Positions 9,787-16,097 of a DNA stretch of 64,000 nucleotides are shown here, piece after piece. This stretch comes from Clostridia bacterium. Lineage in GTDB: Bacteria; Bacillota; Clostridia; UMGS1883; UMGS1540. Where the stretch lies: assembly GCA_017436645.1 (NCBI GenBank), contig JAFSCR010000001.1, positions 1-64,000 on the forward strand, written 5' to 3'. The position numbers and the translations under genes were made by a program. How positions within the stretch are numbered: position 1 is the first letter of the stretch; each line of letters begins with the position of its first letter. Under the pieces are notes generated by a model. It did no database searches and was not told the origin of the DNA. It saw nothing but the letters and a program-made list of their open reading frames with translations.

Positions 9787-10599
9787 ATGAAACACGAAAA
9801 AAACATTCGAATTGCATTTCTTTTAAATCTTTCCTTTTCCGTTTTGGAATTTTTGGGCGGTCTTTTTACAGGAAGCGTTGCCATCATTTCTGATGCCGTG
9901 CACGATTTCGGTGATGCCTTAAGCGTTGGAATTGCTTGGTTTCTGGAAAAGAAAAGCGTGCGAAACCCCGATGATATATACACCTACGGCTACAGGCGTT
10001 TTTCGGTTCTCGGCGGTCTGATTACAACCATTGTACTGTTTTTCGCTTCTGTATTCGTTCTGCACCACGCTGTCATGCGGCTTCTCTCCCCCGTGCCCGT
10101 ACATGCAAGCGGTATGCTTATAATTGCGGTTTTAGGCGTACTTATTAACGGTGCAGCGGCGCACTTTACCCATGATGACCATTCTATAAACGGCAGGGCG
10201 ATAAATCTTCATATGCTTGAGGACGTACTGGGCTGGGTGGTGGTTCTTGTGGGGGCCGTGGTCATTCGGTTTACGGATTTTTATTTCATCGACCCGCTCC
10301 TGTCCATTGCCGTTGCCTGTTTTATTCTCGTCCACGTTTTTAAAAATCTCTTTTTAGTTCTCCGTATCTTTCTGGAGAAAATACCCGAAGGCATTTCTGT
10401 GCAGGAAATTAAGGGAGAGCTTCTGCAAATCGAAGGTGTTAAAGATGTCCCTCGCCTTTGTGTCCGCACCCTCGACGGCGAAACCCACGCGGCAGCCTTG
10501 CATATTATAACGGATGGGGATGCAACGGCATTAAAAAAGGCTGTGCGGGAAAAACTGATGCGGTATGGTATCGGACTGGTTACGATTGAAACGGAATAA
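9787..10599 (+). CDS. Cation diffusion facilitator (CDF) family transporter
   Basis: 270-residue metal exporter that uses the proton gradient to remove Zn, Mn, Fe or related ions. The membrane part (about six helices, 1-205) has the metal-site motif SDAVHDFGDA (residues 38-47) in helix II and LEDVLGWVVV in helix V (HMLED, where many homologues have HxxxD). A cytoplasmic domain of about 65 residues follows. Start at 9787 has GGGAGG upstream; the longer frame runs back through the regulatory region and the divergent tetR. Control by the adjacent TetR protein is strongly suggested by the operator. Confidence 0.9.
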   Translation: MKHEKNIRIAFLLNLSFSVLEFLGGLFTGSVAIISDAVHDFGDALSVGIAWFLEKKSVRNPDDIYTYGYRRFSVLGGLITTIVLFFASVFVLHHAVMRLLSPVPVHASGMLIIAVLGVLINGAAAHFTHDDHSINGRAINLHMLEDVLGWVVVLVGAVVIRFTDFYFIDPLLSIAVACFILVHVFKNLFLVLRIFLEKIPEGISVQEIKGELLQIEGVKDVPRLCVRTLDGETHAAALHIITDGDATALKKAVREKLMRYGIGLVTIETE

Positions 10600-10865
10600 T
10601 GACATAAAAAGCTTGTTCTTGCCTTTGGCGAACTGTTCGCATCCGTGGGATGCGTGTCACCATAGAGATATTTTAAAAATTCTTTGGCGATATACTCGCT
10701 CACGCTCGTGCGATATATTTGCTAACGCAAATTCGATATAACTTCACTTCGTTTCGTTGCGATATGATATAAATTCCTTTTCTCGTCCCGAAGGGACATA
10801 TCGCATCCGTCAGGATATATCGCGTACGAAGTACATATCGCAAATTCCGTCAGGAATTTATATCG
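10600..10865. repeat. Non-coding chain of small hairpins punctuated by GATATA/TATATCGC
   Basis: No gene is visible. From about 10685 a series of short hairpins (GTCCC/GGGAC, ATCC/GGAT, GTAC/GTAC, AAATTCC/GGAATTT) is separated by recurring GCGATAT or ATATCGC units, with loops such as GAA and GTCA. A larger hairpin (CATCC/GGATG) lies at 10639-10653. The unit resembles miniature palindromic repeats of other Firmicute intergenic regions; function is unknown. Confidence 0.6.
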
Positions 10866-10869
10866 CTGA

Positions 10870-10909
10870 AAAAAAGACAGATTTCTTTATCGAAATCTGT
10901 CTTTTTTTC
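10870..10909 (-). terminator. Terminator probably belonging to the tRNA operon, now displaced
   Basis: Ten-bp perfect stem GACAGATTTC/GAAATCTGTC (10876-10901) flanked by long A and T runs, working in both directions. It sits immediately beyond attL, where the 3' end of tRNA-Lys lay before the element inserted, so it is best read as the old terminator of the tRNA operon, now 5.1 kb away. Confidence 0.75.
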
Positions 10910-10954
10910 TGGTGATCCATCGGGGATTCGAACCCCGGACACCTTGATTAAAAG
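10910..10954 (-). repeat. attL: 45-bp fragment of tRNA-Lys 3' half
   Basis: Identical to 16022-16066. It is the original chromosomal 3' end of tRNA-Lys (CCA, acceptor 3' strand, T arm, up to the anticodon loop) cut off from its 5' half by the insertion. By itself it cannot form a tRNA. Confidence 0.93.
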
Positions 10955-11150
10955 GCAAAATAAGTTATAACCTTCTGTGCCCTTAAAAGCTTATAAACCC
11001 CCTTTTTACGGTGTTTTTCGCTCTTGGGTTTATTTCTGTTTTGCTATTGTTTTTCTAAAAGTGTGCAACAAACTGTGCAGTTGCACACTTTTATTTTTTG
11101 TTTTTTCTGTTTATTCGTTTTAAAATAATTTATAACGAATAACTATTTTT
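10955..11150. other. Left end of element: AT-rich, with strong hairpin and arm-like repeat
   Basis: No gene is seen. A perfect 13-bp stem (11057-11069 with 11080-11092) contains three copies of the hexamer TGTGCA or its complement and is followed by T-rich DNA. The 24 bases at 11057-11080 recur with two differences at 15926-15949 near the right end, in the same orientation. This looks like an integrase arm-binding site, and could also act as a terminator for rightward reading. Confidence 0.5.
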
Positions 11151-11552
11151 TTCCGACCCCCCTCGAAACGAGGGGGGCTGTGGGGGGAGTGCGCCCCGTC
11201 GAACACGTTTCATGTTGCGCCTCCGCAGAGGCGCAAAGGGGCGCCACCCTCGGCGTGCCCCGCCGAGGGATTTTGTTCGCTCCTCCTTTGGGAAAAGCCC
11301 GTTACGGAACGGCCGATTCGCAGACCCCGGGGGGCGCCGGCGTTTGAGGCGCAAGGGCTTCGGCGGGGAACCCGCCGAAATTAAATCAGGGTTTTTCGCC
11401 GCCCCGACAGCCGCAAAGCGGCGGACTGAAAAAGGAAAGCACCACAAGGAGGGCAAGGCGGCGAAAAAGCCACCACAGCGCCCGCACCCCGGACCGGGCG
11501 GCGCAGGGGCGAAACCGAGAGGAGCACCCGAAAGGGTTTTTTATTTTCTCGC

Positions 11553-11611
11553 CTTGTCAAGGTGGAGAAAATAAATTTTCGAAGAAAATTTATTTTACTA
11601 CCTTGACACGA
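11553..11611. repeat. Hairpin repeat copy A with AT-rich inner stem
   Basis: Outer stem TGTCAAGGT (11555-11563) pairs with ACCTTGACA (11600-11608). The inner 13-bp stem AAAATAAATTTTC (11568-11580) pairs with 11584-11596 around a GAA loop. The outer arms and their short flanks (GGAG, ACT, CGA) match copy B. Confidence 0.8.
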
Positions 11612-11700
11612 CGGGGAAAGCGGAAGCATGCTCCGAGCGGGCTGCGCCGCCACCCCTTTCTTGCGGATGCAGCCCGCCAAGAAACGTTTATTTTCTTTTT

Positions 11701-11747
11701 TTGTCAAGGTGGAGGGCCGCCTACGGCGGCCACTACCTTGACACGAT
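11701..11747. repeat. Hairpin repeat copy B with GC-rich inner stem
   Basis: Same outer arms as copy A, TGTCAAGGT (11702-11710) and ACCTTGACA (11735-11743), with the same GGAG and ACT junctions. The inner stem is a different sequence, GGCCGCC (11715-11721) with GGCGGCC (11725-11731). Confidence 0.8.
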
Positions 11748-12180
11748 ACGAAAAAGGAGCACAATGGAAAAGCGCCCCTAGGGCTTAGCCGACTTTTGCT
11801 CCTTTTGGTTTTTTGTTTTCTTTCCTTATGTGTGGCCGTTTTTTTTTTTTTTGGGTCCTTGCCCCCTTGCGGAGGGGGCAAGCCGCCGCAGCGGCGGGGG
11901 TGGCTACGCTAAAGCATAGACAAGTCTGCCGTGGAGCGAATTGGACAAAATTTCAGTTTTGCGCCCCTTGTGGCTTGAATTCGCGCAGCGAATTGCGCAA
12001 AACACAAATTTTGTTCACATTCGCGAGATATGCTTTTTTTCTTTTGATTTGCACTTGCGCAGCTGATGCGCAGCGACTGCTGCCCTTTAGGTGCAGCACA
12101 AAGCAAGGACAGCGAGCTTTGTTGAGAGAAACGCCTCGGGCGTTTCCTCATGGAGCATGCTTTTGTTTTTTCTTTTCCCC

Positions 12181-12446
12181 TTCTTGGCCGCACACAGCGA
12201 GCAGAGGGAGCGCCGCTCGACCGAAGGGAGAAGTGGGCGAGCCTGCGAGCGTAAAAGAAATGCTTTATGGTTTGCACGGAACCCCGGCAAGGAGAGCGGC
12301 GGCGAGGGGCGAAGCGTTCCCGCGGAGCGGAGCGGAGCAGCGAAGCCACCGCCACCGCGAACCGAAGCCAGGGCAAGACAAAGCAAAAAGAAGGCTTTTT
12401 TTATTTAATTCTTTTTCTTGGCCGCACACAGCGAGCCTGCGAGCGT
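12181..12446 (+). repeat. Direct repeats with an internal deletion or insertion
   Basis: A 22-bp sequence at 12181-12202 recurs at 12415-12436, and a 16-bp sequence at 12237-12252 recurs at 12431-12446. In the second copy the two blocks overlap directly at GCGAGC; in the first they are separated by a short hairpin-bearing stretch (CGAGCGGCG-type dyad). One copy is therefore related to the other by loss or gain between GCGAGC repeats. Confidence 0.7.
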
Positions 12447-12467
12447 CTCCTTTTTTGCACCAAATTG

Positions 12468-12497
12468 TTGACAAAAAGCAACCGGTTTTGTTATAAT
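12468..12497 (+). promoter_or_regulatory. Promoter of candidate small RNA
   Basis: TTGACA (12468-12473), 18-base spacer, TATAAT (12492-12497): both hexamers are consensus. It points at the minus-strand XRE gene, with no plus-strand reading frame behind it. Confidence 0.65.
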
Positions 12498-12503
12498 GTA
12501 ATT

Positions 12504-12563
12504 GTGTACCACATTCCCTCGCATATTGGCGGCAAGGCGGCCAAATTTCTGCGGGGGTTTTTT
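12504..12563 (+). ncRNA. Candidate ~60-nt small RNA with intrinsic terminator
   Basis: Predicted from about seven bases after the TATAAT box to the T run at 12558-12563. A closing stem CCCTCGC (12516-12522) with GCGGGGG (12551-12557) encloses a second stem TTGGC/GCCAA, and six T follow at once, which makes an intrinsic terminator. The last bases touch the stop codon of the convergent XRE gene, so it could act on that messenger or in replication control. No homologue is recognised and expression is untested. Confidence 0.45.
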
Positions 12564-12825
12564 AATACATGTATGTTTTTGCTTTTATTCTCAATTCGTT
12601 TAGAATCGTTTTTTCTATGCCTAGCCTTTTGGAAATTTTTTCCATATTTTTTATTTTGGGCGTAATATAGTCGTTTTCATATTTCCAGTATTGTGAACGG
12701 GAGATATTTAATATATTTGCAGTTTCCTGTTGTGTAAGCCCTAGAGAAACTCTCCTCCTCTTCAAGGCGTGCCCGAAAGTTCGGGGCATGCCTTCTTTTA
12801 TATTTAAAATCGTTTCTTTTTCCAT
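12562..12825 (-). CDS. XRE-type helix-turn-helix protein
   Basis: 87-residue DNA-binding protein. The HTH_3 fold spans about residues 17-72 (GHALKRRRVSLGLTQQETA, then SRSQYWKYEND). It is the last gene of the element's minus-strand set, 24 bases after the DUF4373 protein. Preceded by GGGGG. It is shorter than a phage CI repressor and has no C-terminal peptidase part. Role unknown; it could be a late regulator of the element. A candidate small RNA converges on its 3' end. Confidence 0.75.
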   Translation of the reverse strand: MEKETILNIKEGMPRTFGHALKRRRVSLGLTQQETANILNISRSQYWKYENDYITPKIKNMEKISKRLGIEKTILNELRIKAKTYMY

Positions 12826-12849: not shown

Positions 12850-13701
12850 TTAATTGGTGCAATTCCTTTCTTTTATTCTTTTTTCTAGCACTCTTTTTTC
12901 GAATTCCGCTATATCATAACTGGCATTGGAGCTATAGGAAAGAAAGTTGTTTTTACCGCTTATTTTCTTTTCTGTGCGCTTTTTTATTGCATGTTGTTCT
13001 CTTATTGCCTCAAACTGCATAACGTCTTTTACGCCGTCCTTAATGGCGTTTTTTAACACTGTTCTAGTCCAGTTCCAACCTTTTCCGTCTATTTTTGCAA
13101 GTTCAATTATGTATTTTATCACGGAAAATTCGAGTTGATTCTCTATTGACCGAAGTTCCTTCTTTACTTGATCGGTCATTGTCCCGAAAAGTTTCTCATA
13201 CAATTCGGCGGCTCCGGCAGCATCATCAATCTGTTTATTTCCTTCTTTCTTTCTTTGATTTGTTTTGTCGACATTTTTTTGATAAATGTCGACATTATTT
13301 CCTAAAATGTTTACATTTTGGGGGATTTGCTCTTCACGAATCAAAAGTAATTCTTTTTTTATGACCGTTTCTTTACGCCGACGGGTGGCCTCGAGAAATC
13401 GTTTCTGTATGCCGGAAGAGGTTAAAATTCCAAATTTTTCCAGTATTTCTTTATTGAAAATTTCTCTTTTCACGGCTGCTGCTATTATATTTTCAAGCGC
13501 TTCGATAGTTAGTCCGAGCTCCCTCGCAAATAATAATGCTATATCCTTTTCCCAGTTTATGAAATAACCTTCCCCGCCATATATTTTTTGCCATAACTTT
13601 ATTATAACGGCAAAACCTTCGAGGCCGTATTCGCATTCTATCAGCTGCAGTTTCGTGTCTAGATTCGTGTCGAGCGGAAAAAAGTGAATTCCGCTTTGCA
13701 T
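12850..13701 (-). CDS. Phage-type replication protein, DUF4373 N-terminus with DnaD/DnaB_2-like C-terminus
   Basis: 283 residues. The N-terminal part (about 1-100: FFPLDTNLDTKLQLIECEYG, GFAVIIKLWQKIYGGEGY) matches the Lin1244/Lin1753-like DUF4373 domain common at the start of phage replication-initiation proteins. A linker rich in Asn, Lys and Gln follows, then about 170-230 resembles the DnaD/DnaB_2 helical domain (LRSIENQLEFSVIKYIIELA then WNWTRTVLKNAI). Such proteins recruit the host helicase to the replication origin. GGAGGG precedes the ATG. In this element it is the best candidate for replication initiation after excision. No ATPase or primase motif is seen. Confidence 0.75.
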   Translation of the reverse strand: MQSGIHFFPLDTNLDTKLQLIECEYGLEGFAVIIKLWQKIYGGEGYFINWEKDIALLFARELGLTIEALENIIAAAVKREIFNKEILEKFGILTSSGIQKRFLEATRRRKETVIKKELLLIREEQIPQNVNILGNNVDIYQKNVDKTNQRKKEGNKQIDDAAGAAELYEKLFGTMTDQVKKELRSIENQLEFSVIKYIIELAKIDGKGWNWTRTVLKNAIKDGVKDVMQFEAIREQHAIKKRTEKKISGKNNFLSYSSNASYDIAEFEKRVLEKRIKERNCTN

Positions 13702-13702
13702 T

Positions 13703-13903
13703 TTAATCCCTCCTGAAACAATCTATAAATTTTGAAAGTTCCAATACAGCCTCCCGAAAGTGTTTCGGGTCGTGTTCGTTTATAATTTCGAGTGTACTTT
13801 CTATGGCGGCGGTCAGCGTTGCAAACAAATCGCTGTCCGTTGCTTTTCCTTCAAAAAGTGTGGTGGCCTTTTTTCCGTCGAATGTGATTTTTACTTCTAG
13901 CAT
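13703..13903 (-). CDS. Small element protein of unknown function
   Basis: 66 residues, acidic, starting MLEVKITFDGKKATTLFEG with an amphipathic helix after residue 25 (DLFATLTAAIESTLEIINEH). It sits one base before the replication protein start region and 12 bases after the excisionase-like gene, so it is co-transcribed. AAAGGAG lies upstream. No family is recognised. Confidence 0.65.
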   Translation of the reverse strand: MLEVKITFDGKKATTLFEGKATDSDLFATLTAAIESTLEIINEHDPKHFREAVLELSKFIDCFRRD

Positions 13904-13915
13904 GTTTTTTCTCCT

Positions 13916-14128
13916 TTACTTACTGTTTTCCCTTCGCAACCTTGCACCGAGTTCCCCGCCCTCTGATAACCATTTGTCGAGCATGTCGGCGAAGAAGTAT
14001 TTTCTAACGCCTATGGTGAAGAAAGTTCCCGGCGGAAAAAGTTCTTCTTTTTCAAGCTGATACAGCTTGTTTCTTCCACATCTAATTTTTTTGCATGCCA
14101 TTTCTCGGGTAAGTGTTTCTCTCGGCAT
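13916..14128 (-). CDS. Excisionase-like helix-turn-helix protein
   Basis: 70 residues with a winged-helix/HTH_17-type pattern: TREMACKKIRCGRNKLYQLEKE as the helix-turn-helix, then a short wing (FTIGVRKYFFADMLDKWL). Proteins of this size and place in integrative elements are recombination-directionality factors (Xis) or small regulators. Its ATG shares a base with the stop of the Cro-like gene (TAATG), indicating translational coupling. It is basic and lacks other domains. Confidence 0.7.
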   Translation of the reverse strand: MPRETLTREMACKKIRCGRNKLYQLEKEELFPPGTFFTIGVRKYFFADMLDKWLSEGGELGARLRRENSK

Positions 14129-14325
14129 TATACCCCTTCCTTTCTTAATTCTTCAAGCGTAACATCAAGAGCATCACAAATTAAAAAAAGCTCTTCCGCA
14201 GAAAGTTTCCTTTTGCCGTTCAGTATGGCGCTGAATGTGTTTTGATTAATTCCGGTCTTTGCTGCAATGGTTTTTTGTTTTATGCCGTGCTTCTTCATAA
14301 ATGCTTGGATTTGTTTATAAAACAT
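14128..14325 (-). CDS. Cro-like XRE repressor/activator
   Basis: 65 residues from the start at 14325 (MFYKQIQAFMKKHG), where AGGAGC lies seven bases upstream; the longer frame to 14391 runs into the promoter. An HTH_3 domain fills the protein (IKQKTIAAKTGINQNTFSAI then LSAEELFLICDALDV). First gene of the minus-strand operon, divergent from the CI-like gene, as Cro is from CI or Str from Stl. It probably binds the ACAGA/TCTGT operators between them. Confidence 0.78.
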   Translation of the reverse strand: MFYKQIQAFMKKHGIKQKTIAAKTGINQNTFSAILNGKRKLSAEELFLICDALDVTLEELRKEGV

Positions 14326-14339
14326 TTTCTTGCTCCTTT

Positions 14340-14442
14340 CTACAGATTTTCTGTACATTTGTATAATACTACATATTTTCTGTAATGTCAATATAATTTT
14401 ACAGATTTTCTATATTTTTTTATTGACAATACAGAAAAAGGG
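14340..14442. promoter_or_regulatory. Operator cluster of the divergent switch
   Basis: Four related sites with the half-site TACAGA or TCTGTA: a full dyad at 14341-14354 (TACAGATTTTCTGT), partial sites near 14374-14384 and 14399-14412, and ATACAGAAAA at 14429-14438. They overlap both divergent promoters. Confidence 0.65.
14363..14391 (-). promoter_or_regulatory. Promoter of the Cro/xis/replication operon
   Basis: Minus-strand TTGACA (14386-14391), 17-base spacer, TATTAT (14363-14368). A TTACAGAAAATATGTA site fills the spacer. Confidence 0.75.
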
Positions 14443-14473: not shown

Positions 14474-14803
14474 TTGGATAATTACATTATTGGTGAACGT
14501 GTAAAAAAGCTTCGTGAGGCAAGAGGAATTTCTCAAAAGGATTTTGCAAAAAAATTAAATATAACCGCCTCCCGCCTTTCAAATTGGGAAAACGGCTATA
14601 ATAAAATTCCTTTTGATTTTATTCCAGAAATTGCTTCGTTGCTTGGTGGGTCCGTTGATGCGCTTCTCGGTTTAGAGTTTACGGAGAGCCTTTCGAGTGA
14701 TTTGTTTTATTATTATGTCACTTTGAATGACGAGGGCAGAGAAGCACTTTTGAAATATGCTGCAGATTTATGCGAGATTTCAAAATATACTTCAAAGGGG
14801 TGA
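14474..14803 (+). CDS. CI-like XRE repressor of the element
   Basis: 109 residues starting at TTG, with GGGGG nine bases upstream. The HTH_3 domain is at about 7-62 (GERVKKLREARGISQKDFA, then SRLSNWENG). A short C-terminal helix pair (YYVTLNDEGREALLKYAADL) is typical of small immunity repressors without a protease domain. It is divergent from the Cro-like gene and directly precedes the integrase (4 bases), the arrangement of repressor-integrase pairs in small integrative elements. Without an autoproteolytic part, induction would need an antirepressor or another signal. Confidence 0.8.
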   Translation: MDNYIIGERVKKLREARGISQKDFAKKLNITASRLSNWENGYNKIPFDFIPEIASLLGGSVDALLGLEFTESLSSDLFYYYVTLNDEGREALLKYAADLCEISKYTSKG

Positions 14804-15925
14804 TTCTGTGGCAGATAAAAGAAAACTTGGACATATAAAAAAGCTTGAAGAAGGAAAGTTTTTAATCCGTGTATCTATGGGCTTCGATGAGTTTGGAAAG
14901 CGGCTGCAGGTTTCCAAAACTGTTTTCTGCGCAAGCGAAAGAGAAGCGGAAAAAGAGCTGGCCCTTCTATATGCTGAGCGTGAACAACTTGCGGAGGACC
15001 GCAGAAGCGGCGCCCCGAAAACCTTGGCGGCGCTTTATAGGGAATGGAGCGAGGCGCACGTTTCAACGCTCGAGGAAAACAGCAAAGCTTTTTATGCTTC
15101 ACTTTGGGAGAATCATATCAAGGAATTTGGGAAGCTTAATCTTTCGGCGCTCTCTCCTTCTACATGTAAAAAAATCATAGGAAACGAAAACAGCCGTACT
15201 GCGGAAGCTGTTTATAAAATGCTTAAGGCCATGTGCAGTAAGGCTGTTTTATGGGGCTATATAGAAAAGAATTACTTTGAATATATAGATGCCCCAAAAC
15301 ACAAGGCTAAAGAAAAGCTGATTTTCGATGAAAATCAGCTGGGCGCCGTTGCACGCTTTGTGCGCAGCGAGGATCTAAAATATCAGTTACTTTTCTATTT
15401 TGCCGCAGTGTGCGGTATGCGGCGGCAAGAAATCGTTGCTCTTAAGTGGGATGATATAGACTTGGGCAGCTGTTCTTTTCGTGTTTGCCGTGCGGCCGTC
15501 GCTGTGGCGGGAAAAGGAACAGTTTTAAAATCTACGAAAACGGCAAGCAGCTGCCGCCGGCTTCACCTTCCCGAATTCCTCGAGCGCCTTTTAATTCGGT
15601 ATCAAGTGGAACAATTTGAATGAAAAGAAAAAATGGGGACTTTATGGAAAGACGGCGGCTTTATCTTCACACAACATAACGGCGAGATTATGAATGTTAC
15701 CACGCCTTCGCATTGGTGGAGCAAATTTCTAGACGAGCACAGGTGTTTACCGAAAGTTACGTTTCACGGACTTCGGCACACTATGGCTAGCCTTGCAATA
15801 AAAGACGGTGCTGCGCTTCCGGTTGTATCTTCTATTTTGGGACATGCACAAACTTCCACGACGGCGAATATTTACGCCCACGCCCTGCAGGGATGGGACG
15901 TCTCCGTTTTAGAGAGTATGGGCGA

Positions 15926-15949
15926 AAAAGTGTGCAATGAACTGTGCAG
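15926..15949 (+). repeat. Arm-like direct repeat near the right end
   Basis: 24 bases inside the integrase gene that match 11057-11080 at 22 positions in the same orientation. Both contain two TGTGCA hexamers spaced identically. Confidence 0.55.
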
Positions 15950-15988
15950 CGGGGAAGGTGACAAGCATTTTTCAGGCAAAAGAAAAAA

Positions 15989-16019
15989 CGCCGAAACCTT
16001 TGAGGTTTCAACGTTTTTT
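15989..16019 (-). terminator. Element-borne terminator next to tRNA-Lys
   Basis: Stem GAAACCT/AGGTTTC with loop TTG, flanked by A and T runs on both sides, inside the last codons of the integrase frame and directly downstream of the restored tRNA-Lys. It can end the integrase transcript and, on the minus strand, replaces the tRNA terminator displaced by the insertion. Confidence 0.75.
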
Positions 16020-16021
16020 CG

Positions 16022-16066
16022 TGGTGATCCATCGGGGATTCGAACCCCGGACACCTTGATTAAAAG
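16022..16066 (-). repeat. attR: 45-bp repeat within intact tRNA-Lys
   Basis: Same sequence as 10910-10954. This copy, brought in by the element, completes the tRNA gene so that the host keeps a functional tRNA-Lys. Confidence 0.93.
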
Positions 16067-16097
16067 TCAAGTGCTCTGCCAACTGAGCTAATGGATC
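16022..16097 (-). tRNA. tRNA-Lys (anticodon TTT)
   Basis: 76 nt including encoded CCA. Acceptor GATCCAT/ATGGATC with discriminator A, anticodon loop CTTTTAA. Last gene of the five-tRNA operon and the integration site of the element. Confidence 0.97.

Follow-up and report, generated by a model that had tools for sequence, protein, structure and literature searches.

Two copies of a widespread hairpin with promoter-like boxes in the gene-free region of a 5.1-kb element integrated in tRNA-Lys

To our knowledge, very few single-strand promoters have been described, and nearly all of them come from enterobacterial plasmids. One study used five known Frpo/ssi sequences as its queries (PMC11541004). 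Frpo is a stem-loop of single-stranded DNA that bears −10 and −35 boxes (PMC9849209; PMC11541004), and RepL/pSN2 plasmids replicate by the rolling-circle mode, while single-strand origins of the ssoA type have RNA polymerase as their priming enzyme (PMC5703833). The sso1 of ICEBs1 has been assayed in the sso-less plasmid pHP13 (PMC4595007). In the present study, a window of 64,000 nucleotides (the whole stretch of DNA analyzed, from the Clostridia bacterium assembly GCA_017436645.1, contig JAFSCR010000001.1) was examined, in which a 5.1-kb element has integrated in tRNA-Lys, with 11151-12460 as its non-coding part. Two hairpins in this region belong to a family that appears to be so far undescribed, since no paper containing both half-motifs was found in a literature search. 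The F-plasmid leading region, including Frpo, gave no sequence match to the motif.

A sequence-only reading had described 11151-12460 as hairpin-dense, GC-rich DNA with no gene inside, and this description, including its boundaries, was borne out. The GC content of the region is 0.567, compared with 36-38% in the adjoining genes and 0.36 in the next 500 bp rightward. Within it are 9 perfect stems that do not overlap, each 7 bp or longer and closed by a loop of 3-10 nt; 100 dinucleotide-preserving shuffles averaged 1.1 and never exceeded 4, and the median for 1310-bp windows across the whole 64 kb is 1. An equal count was reached in one other such window only, the overlapping one at 10481-11790. 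Most sub-regions fold as RNA far better than their shuffles (z from −3.7 to −7.1). The folding excess is absent at 11845-11990 (z −0.3) and not strong at 12180-12329 (z −1.95) or 12300-12449 (z +0.8), the last two values indicating that the right end is GC-rich and not strongly structured. ORFs of 99-227 aa are present, and the protein-coding reading was rejected because none of the 8 overlapping ORFs tested matched Pfam at E≤0.1; no recognizable protein is encoded.

From left to right, the region begins with a hairpin of the form CCCCCCTCG-AAA-CGAGGGGGG (11157-11177), followed by GTGCGCCC at 11189. The stem scan then gave 9-bp stems at 11215-11236, 11247-11269 (terminator-like) and 11359-11379, a 10-bp stem at 11858-11882 and an 8-bp stem at 12128-12146, and repeat analysis combined with folding gave a long stem, GGGTTTTTCGCCGCC/GGCGGCGAAAAAGCC, around a second hairpin (11389-11471) and the hairpin AAAAGGAGCACAA/TTTTGCTCCTTTT (11752-11806). 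A long imperfect hairpin with 23-nt arms lies at 11942-12017 (fold z −3.95), and two direct repeats of family D4 (CTTGGCCGCACACAGCGAGC) lie on the plus strand at 12162-12202 and 12396-12436. No relatives were found of the hairpins at 11157-11379, 11752-11882 and 11942-12146, and no close homologue of the whole region was present in 98 relatives, phages or plasmids. The hairpin zone also extends beyond these limits, to 11056-11148 and, outside the element, to 10620-10910. Within the former, a palindrome TTATTCGTTTTAAA...TTTATAACGAATAA at 11104-11148, perhaps a regulator site or terminator, recurs at 85-91% identity as a single site in the same genome (G000:C28:79098-79141) and near position 1501 in two genomes of another family (L004, L005). 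The stacked palindromes of type GATATAAATTCC...GCGATATATC at 10620-10870, just outside the element, have related copies on three other contigs of the assembly (G000 C33, C14 and C24). Downstream of the region, on the plus strand at 12468-12562, a perfect sigma-70 promoter (TTGACA-18-TATAAT with extended TG, 12/12 matches, 12468-12497) precedes about 60 nt that end in a strong hairpin and a run of T (12504-12562; z −2.4, with an inferred start), possibly a small RNA of the element that is convergent with the adjacent HTH gene.

The limits of the element are set by a 45-bp exact direct repeat, TGGTGATCCATCGGGGATTCGAACCCCGGACACCTTGATTAAAAG, at 10910-10954 and 16022-16066, which corresponds to the 3′ end of tRNA-Lys; the right copy lies within the intact tRNA gene (16022-16097, minus strand), and the hairpin region forms the left quarter of the element. 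On the minus strand, profile matches identified an Xre/CI-like HTH protein (12562-12825), a phage-type replication initiator (12850-13701; Lin1244_N and the PHROG replication initiation protein, 1.3e-45) and an HTH repressor (14128-14391), together with a weakly matching excisionase-like HTH protein (13916-14128) and a 66-aa ORF with no match (13703-13903). A CI-like repressor (14474-14803, profile match) and a tyrosine integrase (14757-16091) are encoded on the plus strand, and three operator-like repeats CTACAGATTTTCTGTA lie between the divergent repressor genes (14340-14414). An in-frame TGA (15621-15623) interrupts the integrase gene, which could point to a defective element, a sequencing error or recoding. 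Iteron-like repeats TGTCGACATT with 21-nt spacing lie inside the rep gene (13266-13315) and make a stronger origin candidate than the GC-rich DNA does, and the Rep looks theta-type with its iterons inside its own gene. The att repeats, integrase, repressor and replication module are those of a small integrative element, and the gene set, which includes no structural genes, is satellite-like; the element encodes neither a relaxase nor a rolling-circle Rep. No close relative of the element was found: searches with Rep and Int returned distant phage homologues only, and MT838208, considered as a sister element, proved to be an ordinary phage fragment. At the corresponding site in two related genomes (G002 and G007), similarity either runs past the tRNA or another integrase is present; the different integrase at the corresponding tRNA-Lys of one of them (L228, G007:C4 near 3402) makes this tRNA look like an integration hot spot.

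The two central hairpins, at 11536-11627 and 11683-11762 on the plus strand, share the form TGTCAAGGTGGAG-stem-loop-ACTACCTTGACA. Copy 1 (core 11555-11608; 42.9 bits) has a 13-bp AT-rich inner stem and copy 2 (core 11702-11743; 55.2 bits) a 7-bp GC-rich one, so that the flanks are alike, the inner stems are unrelated, and both stems pair perfectly. Folded as single-stranded DNA, the copies reach z-scores of −6.0 and −6.1, respectively, and their relatives −5.1 to −9.7. The sequence-only reading had named random scattering of the hairpins over the genome as an argument against function here; in a covariance search of the 1.75-Mb genome assembly, both copies were found only in this region, nor does the region itself recur elsewhere in the genome, and the genome-repeat reading (dispersed, REP/BIME-type) was rejected. 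A known RNA was likewise rejected, since Rfam returned only tRNAs in the window at the gathering threshold and only chance matches, none credible, at E≤10.

A pattern that fixed only TGTCAAGGTG...TACCTTGACA was searched in 85,000 species genomes and matched 66 stretches. In most of these, a variable inner hairpin is flanked by GAG (or GAA) and (A/T)C, bases that had not been requested, and a minority are coding or chance matches. Pattern matches judged to be of the latter kinds (e.g., L147, L170-L171, L173-L178 and G005) were left out. With relaxed patterns on viral contigs, CAAGGTGGAG...CTACCTTG remained invariant and the outer stem varied with compensation, giving the family form CAAGGTGGAG-variable stem-loop-CTACCTTG within a variable outer stem; the search patterns account in part for the invariance of the core. 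Carriers include Clostridia, Verrucomicrobia, Planctomycetes, Ignavibacteria, Nitrospirae, Bacteroidales, Lentisphaerae, Rickettsiales and others, as well as inovirus-like genomes, tailed phages, a 1,361-bp RepL plasmid and insertion sequences of Clostridia. Covariation, which had been proposed as a check on function, is strong in both the inner and the outer stems: among 20 members, 95.8% of cells pair, 8 pairs have changed on both sides, and doubly changed cells number 56 against 17.9 in shuffles. The alignment has a covariation score of 0.388, compared with 0.106 for shuffles and at most 0.085 when slid. Fifteen other carrier genomes hold 1-3 distinct copies each, the exception being a multi-copy IS family of Clostridia with a DDE (rve-like) transposase, in which the hairpin copies lie inside the IS. 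In these elements (L161, L162, L083, L111, L131 and others), one hairpin stands by the 3′ end of the transposase gene and is followed by GATATAAT, and contigs often break at the hairpin. The window copies have neither of the IS flanks, TGGGTGACACTTTTC and GATATAAT.

The fixed stem of the family holds a −35 box (TTGAC). TTGA is present in the fixed stem of 40/43 non-IS members; most patterns favored TTGA, and the last scan, run without the A requirement, gave three true members lacking A. A −10-like hexamer (TAnnnT, at least 4/6, 13-19 nt after TTGNNN) follows on the 3′ arm in 19/43 members and on the 5′ arm in 5/43, with 3.1 expected after shuffling; the 43 members are not fully independent, as the Verrucomicrobia copies are related, and so are L104, L112 and L117 from one genome. 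In several members, the −10 box lies at the stem base or in a stem mismatch, as described for Frpo (PMC9849209). In the window, TTGACA is present, and the 3′ arm of copy 2 carries a promoter-like TTGACA-16-CACAAT (11738-11765, plus strand, 10/12 matches) with a weak −10 box, whereas copy 1 has no −10 box.

Regarding genomic neighbors, three inovirus-like contigs (L142, L150 and L152) carry genes for a G2P-type Rep and Zot beside the hairpin, and a fourth contig (L135) encodes a Rep_trans-like protein with a weak Zot match. These four and the RepL plasmid pRGF00211 (L157; 1,361 bp) are rolling-circle replicons by their gene content; the window element, with its Lin1244-type Rep, is not. In pRGF00211, a gene-free stretch with several GC-rich palindromes lies next to the conserved hairpin, and among the loci found this architecture is the closest to the window region. 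In two loci (L076 and L145), ArdC-like anti-restriction genes start about 95 nt from the hairpin, in a direction that would be served only by a single-strand promoter, and in L142 and L152, rep is found to the right of the hairpin and shares its strand. Across non-IS loci, 21 left genes start beside the hairpin whereas 10 have their end there (p=0.07), so gene orientation beside the motif is suggestive only. No gene adjoins the window hairpins in either direction.

Based on these observations, a possible mechanism is proposed, tentatively, in which the region is the gene-free, cis-acting part of the satellite-like element and its two central hairpins act as a promoter or priming site on single-stranded DNA. 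When the DNA is single-stranded, the hairpin may fold and rebuild a duplex −35 box (TTGAC), with the −10 box placed at the base of the 3′ arm. Host RNA polymerase could then bind and start a transcript or primer templated by the 5′ flank of the hairpin, as in F-plasmid Frpo or sso. We infer that the element passes through a single-stranded stage, during which such priming would convert incoming or replicating single strands to double strands. A single-strand promoter or priming site fits because the stem covaries, the −35 box is duplex, the −10 box lies on one arm and members occur in single-strand replicons; since no gene adjoins the window hairpins, second-strand priming is the likeliest use there. 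Four readings were first offered for this DNA: a structured RNA, a single-strand or replication origin, a packaging region and a nest of palindromic insertions. For at least two hairpins, the covariation, the boxes, the inoviruses and the RepL plasmid now favor a single-strand origin or promoter; a structured RNA is conceivable, with no match in Rfam. The bounded element, with its integrase, repressor, xis-like and Rep genes and its 45-bp att repeats, also supports the proposal. It is weakened by the absence of both a relaxase and a rolling-circle Rep from an element whose Rep looks theta-type, and by the −10 box, which is only CACAAT in copy 2 and missing in copy 1; in addition, several carriers are double-stranded phages, many Clostridia copies are inside IS, and no relatives were found for the remainder of the 1.3 kb. 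More broadly, and with somewhat greater hesitation, the family may be a cross-phylum promoter or priming hairpin recognized by RNA polymerase on single-stranded DNA, a portable start signal gained by unrelated mobile elements, among them filamentous and tailed phages, rolling-circle plasmids, IS elements and mini-satellites.

The hairpin could instead work in double-stranded DNA or in RNA, either as an ordinary rightward sigma-70 promoter whose −35 box lies in a palindrome (a regulator site or supercoil cruciform) or as a transcript leader or terminator. TTGACA with a −10 box at 14-18 nt on the 3′ arm does read rightward as a normal promoter, the inovirus rep genes of L142 and L152 run in that direction, and members occur in double-stranded DNA phages and IS elements. 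However, the variable arm spacing and the covarying inner and outer stems point to a folded single strand rather than a dimer operator, the two ArdC cases have no rightward gene in the right orientation, and the window combines a weak −10 box with no downstream gene, which together leave this alternative unlikely. Yet another account is a nest of palindromic insertions or IS remnants without function here: in Clostridia, copies are found within IS elements that carry a DDE (rve-like) transposase, direct repeats whose second copy has suffered a deletion occupy 12162-12446, palindromic intergenic DNA is also found outside the element (10620-10910), and the integrase is interrupted. Relics should lose their structure, but both window copies keep theirs intact with unrelated inner stems, lack the IS flanks and have no other copies in the genome, and this account is the least probable of those weighed here.

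A further reading makes the region, hairpin included, a site for packaging or transfer (cos/pac or oriT), through which a satellite would exploit a helper phage or conjugative element. This is suggested by the satellite-like gene set without structural genes and by the tailed-phage contigs, in 5/12 of which terminase genes are no more than about 4 kb away from the motif. The C6/G6 palindrome followed by GTGCGCCC at 11157-11196 presumably resembles some oriT sites, though weakly. Noncoding gaps near terminase are common, however, and a single terminase site does not account for a motif that inoviruses and IS elements share with a 1.36-kb plasmid. The oriT reading (inverted repeat plus GTGCGCCC) was rejected: no GTGCGCCC oriT-like site was found in the 1.5 kb around each of the relatives' relaxases, the literature gave no usable match, and the genome itself has a relaxase remnant only. 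The terminase-like match on contig C19 has no sequence in common with the element, and a helper prophage there was rejected on this basis in what is an incomplete genome. A packaging or transfer site is judged somewhat less likely than the double-strand or RNA reading.

If the proposed single-strand promoter or priming function is correct, a sequence-defined hairpin with −35 and −10 boxes would provide a general handle for finding single-strand promoters, how mobile DNA starts working while single-stranded would become a testable question, and the gene-free part of mini-elements would gain a concrete role to test.

Compared with phage satellites (PICI, P4-like) and small integrative elements, the window element has a similar tRNA att site, tyrosine integrase, divergent repressors, excisionase-like protein and phage Rep, but it is only 5.1 kb long and carries 1.3 kb of non-coding hairpin DNA in place of packaging or cargo genes, with no helper found. 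The intergenic hairpin between Zot and Rep in the inovirus-like contigs recalls the complementary-strand origin and packaging region of filamentous phages, whereas the same motif is also found outside inoviruses. Like the sso (ssoA/U/T/W) of rolling-circle plasmids and ICEBs1, the family occurs as a non-coding hairpin in small replicons that generate single-stranded DNA, and a RepL plasmid has the motif; in contrast, the family core appears to differ from the sso motifs, and the window element has no rolling-circle initiator. With Frpo/ssi of the F and ColIb-P9 plasmids, the family shares a long hairpin, predicted to fold in the single strand, whose stem holds a −35 box (followed by a −10-like hexamer in 19/43 members), and, in some members, an adjoining anti-restriction (ArdC-like) gene; a position upstream of leading-region genes is seen at the two ArdC loci only and not in the window. 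The family differs from Frpo/ssi in its invariant CAAGGTGGAG...CTACCTTG band around a variable inner stem and in its spread across phyla, phages and plasmids, and its activity is putative. The family may work like Frpo or sso without being counted as a member of either.
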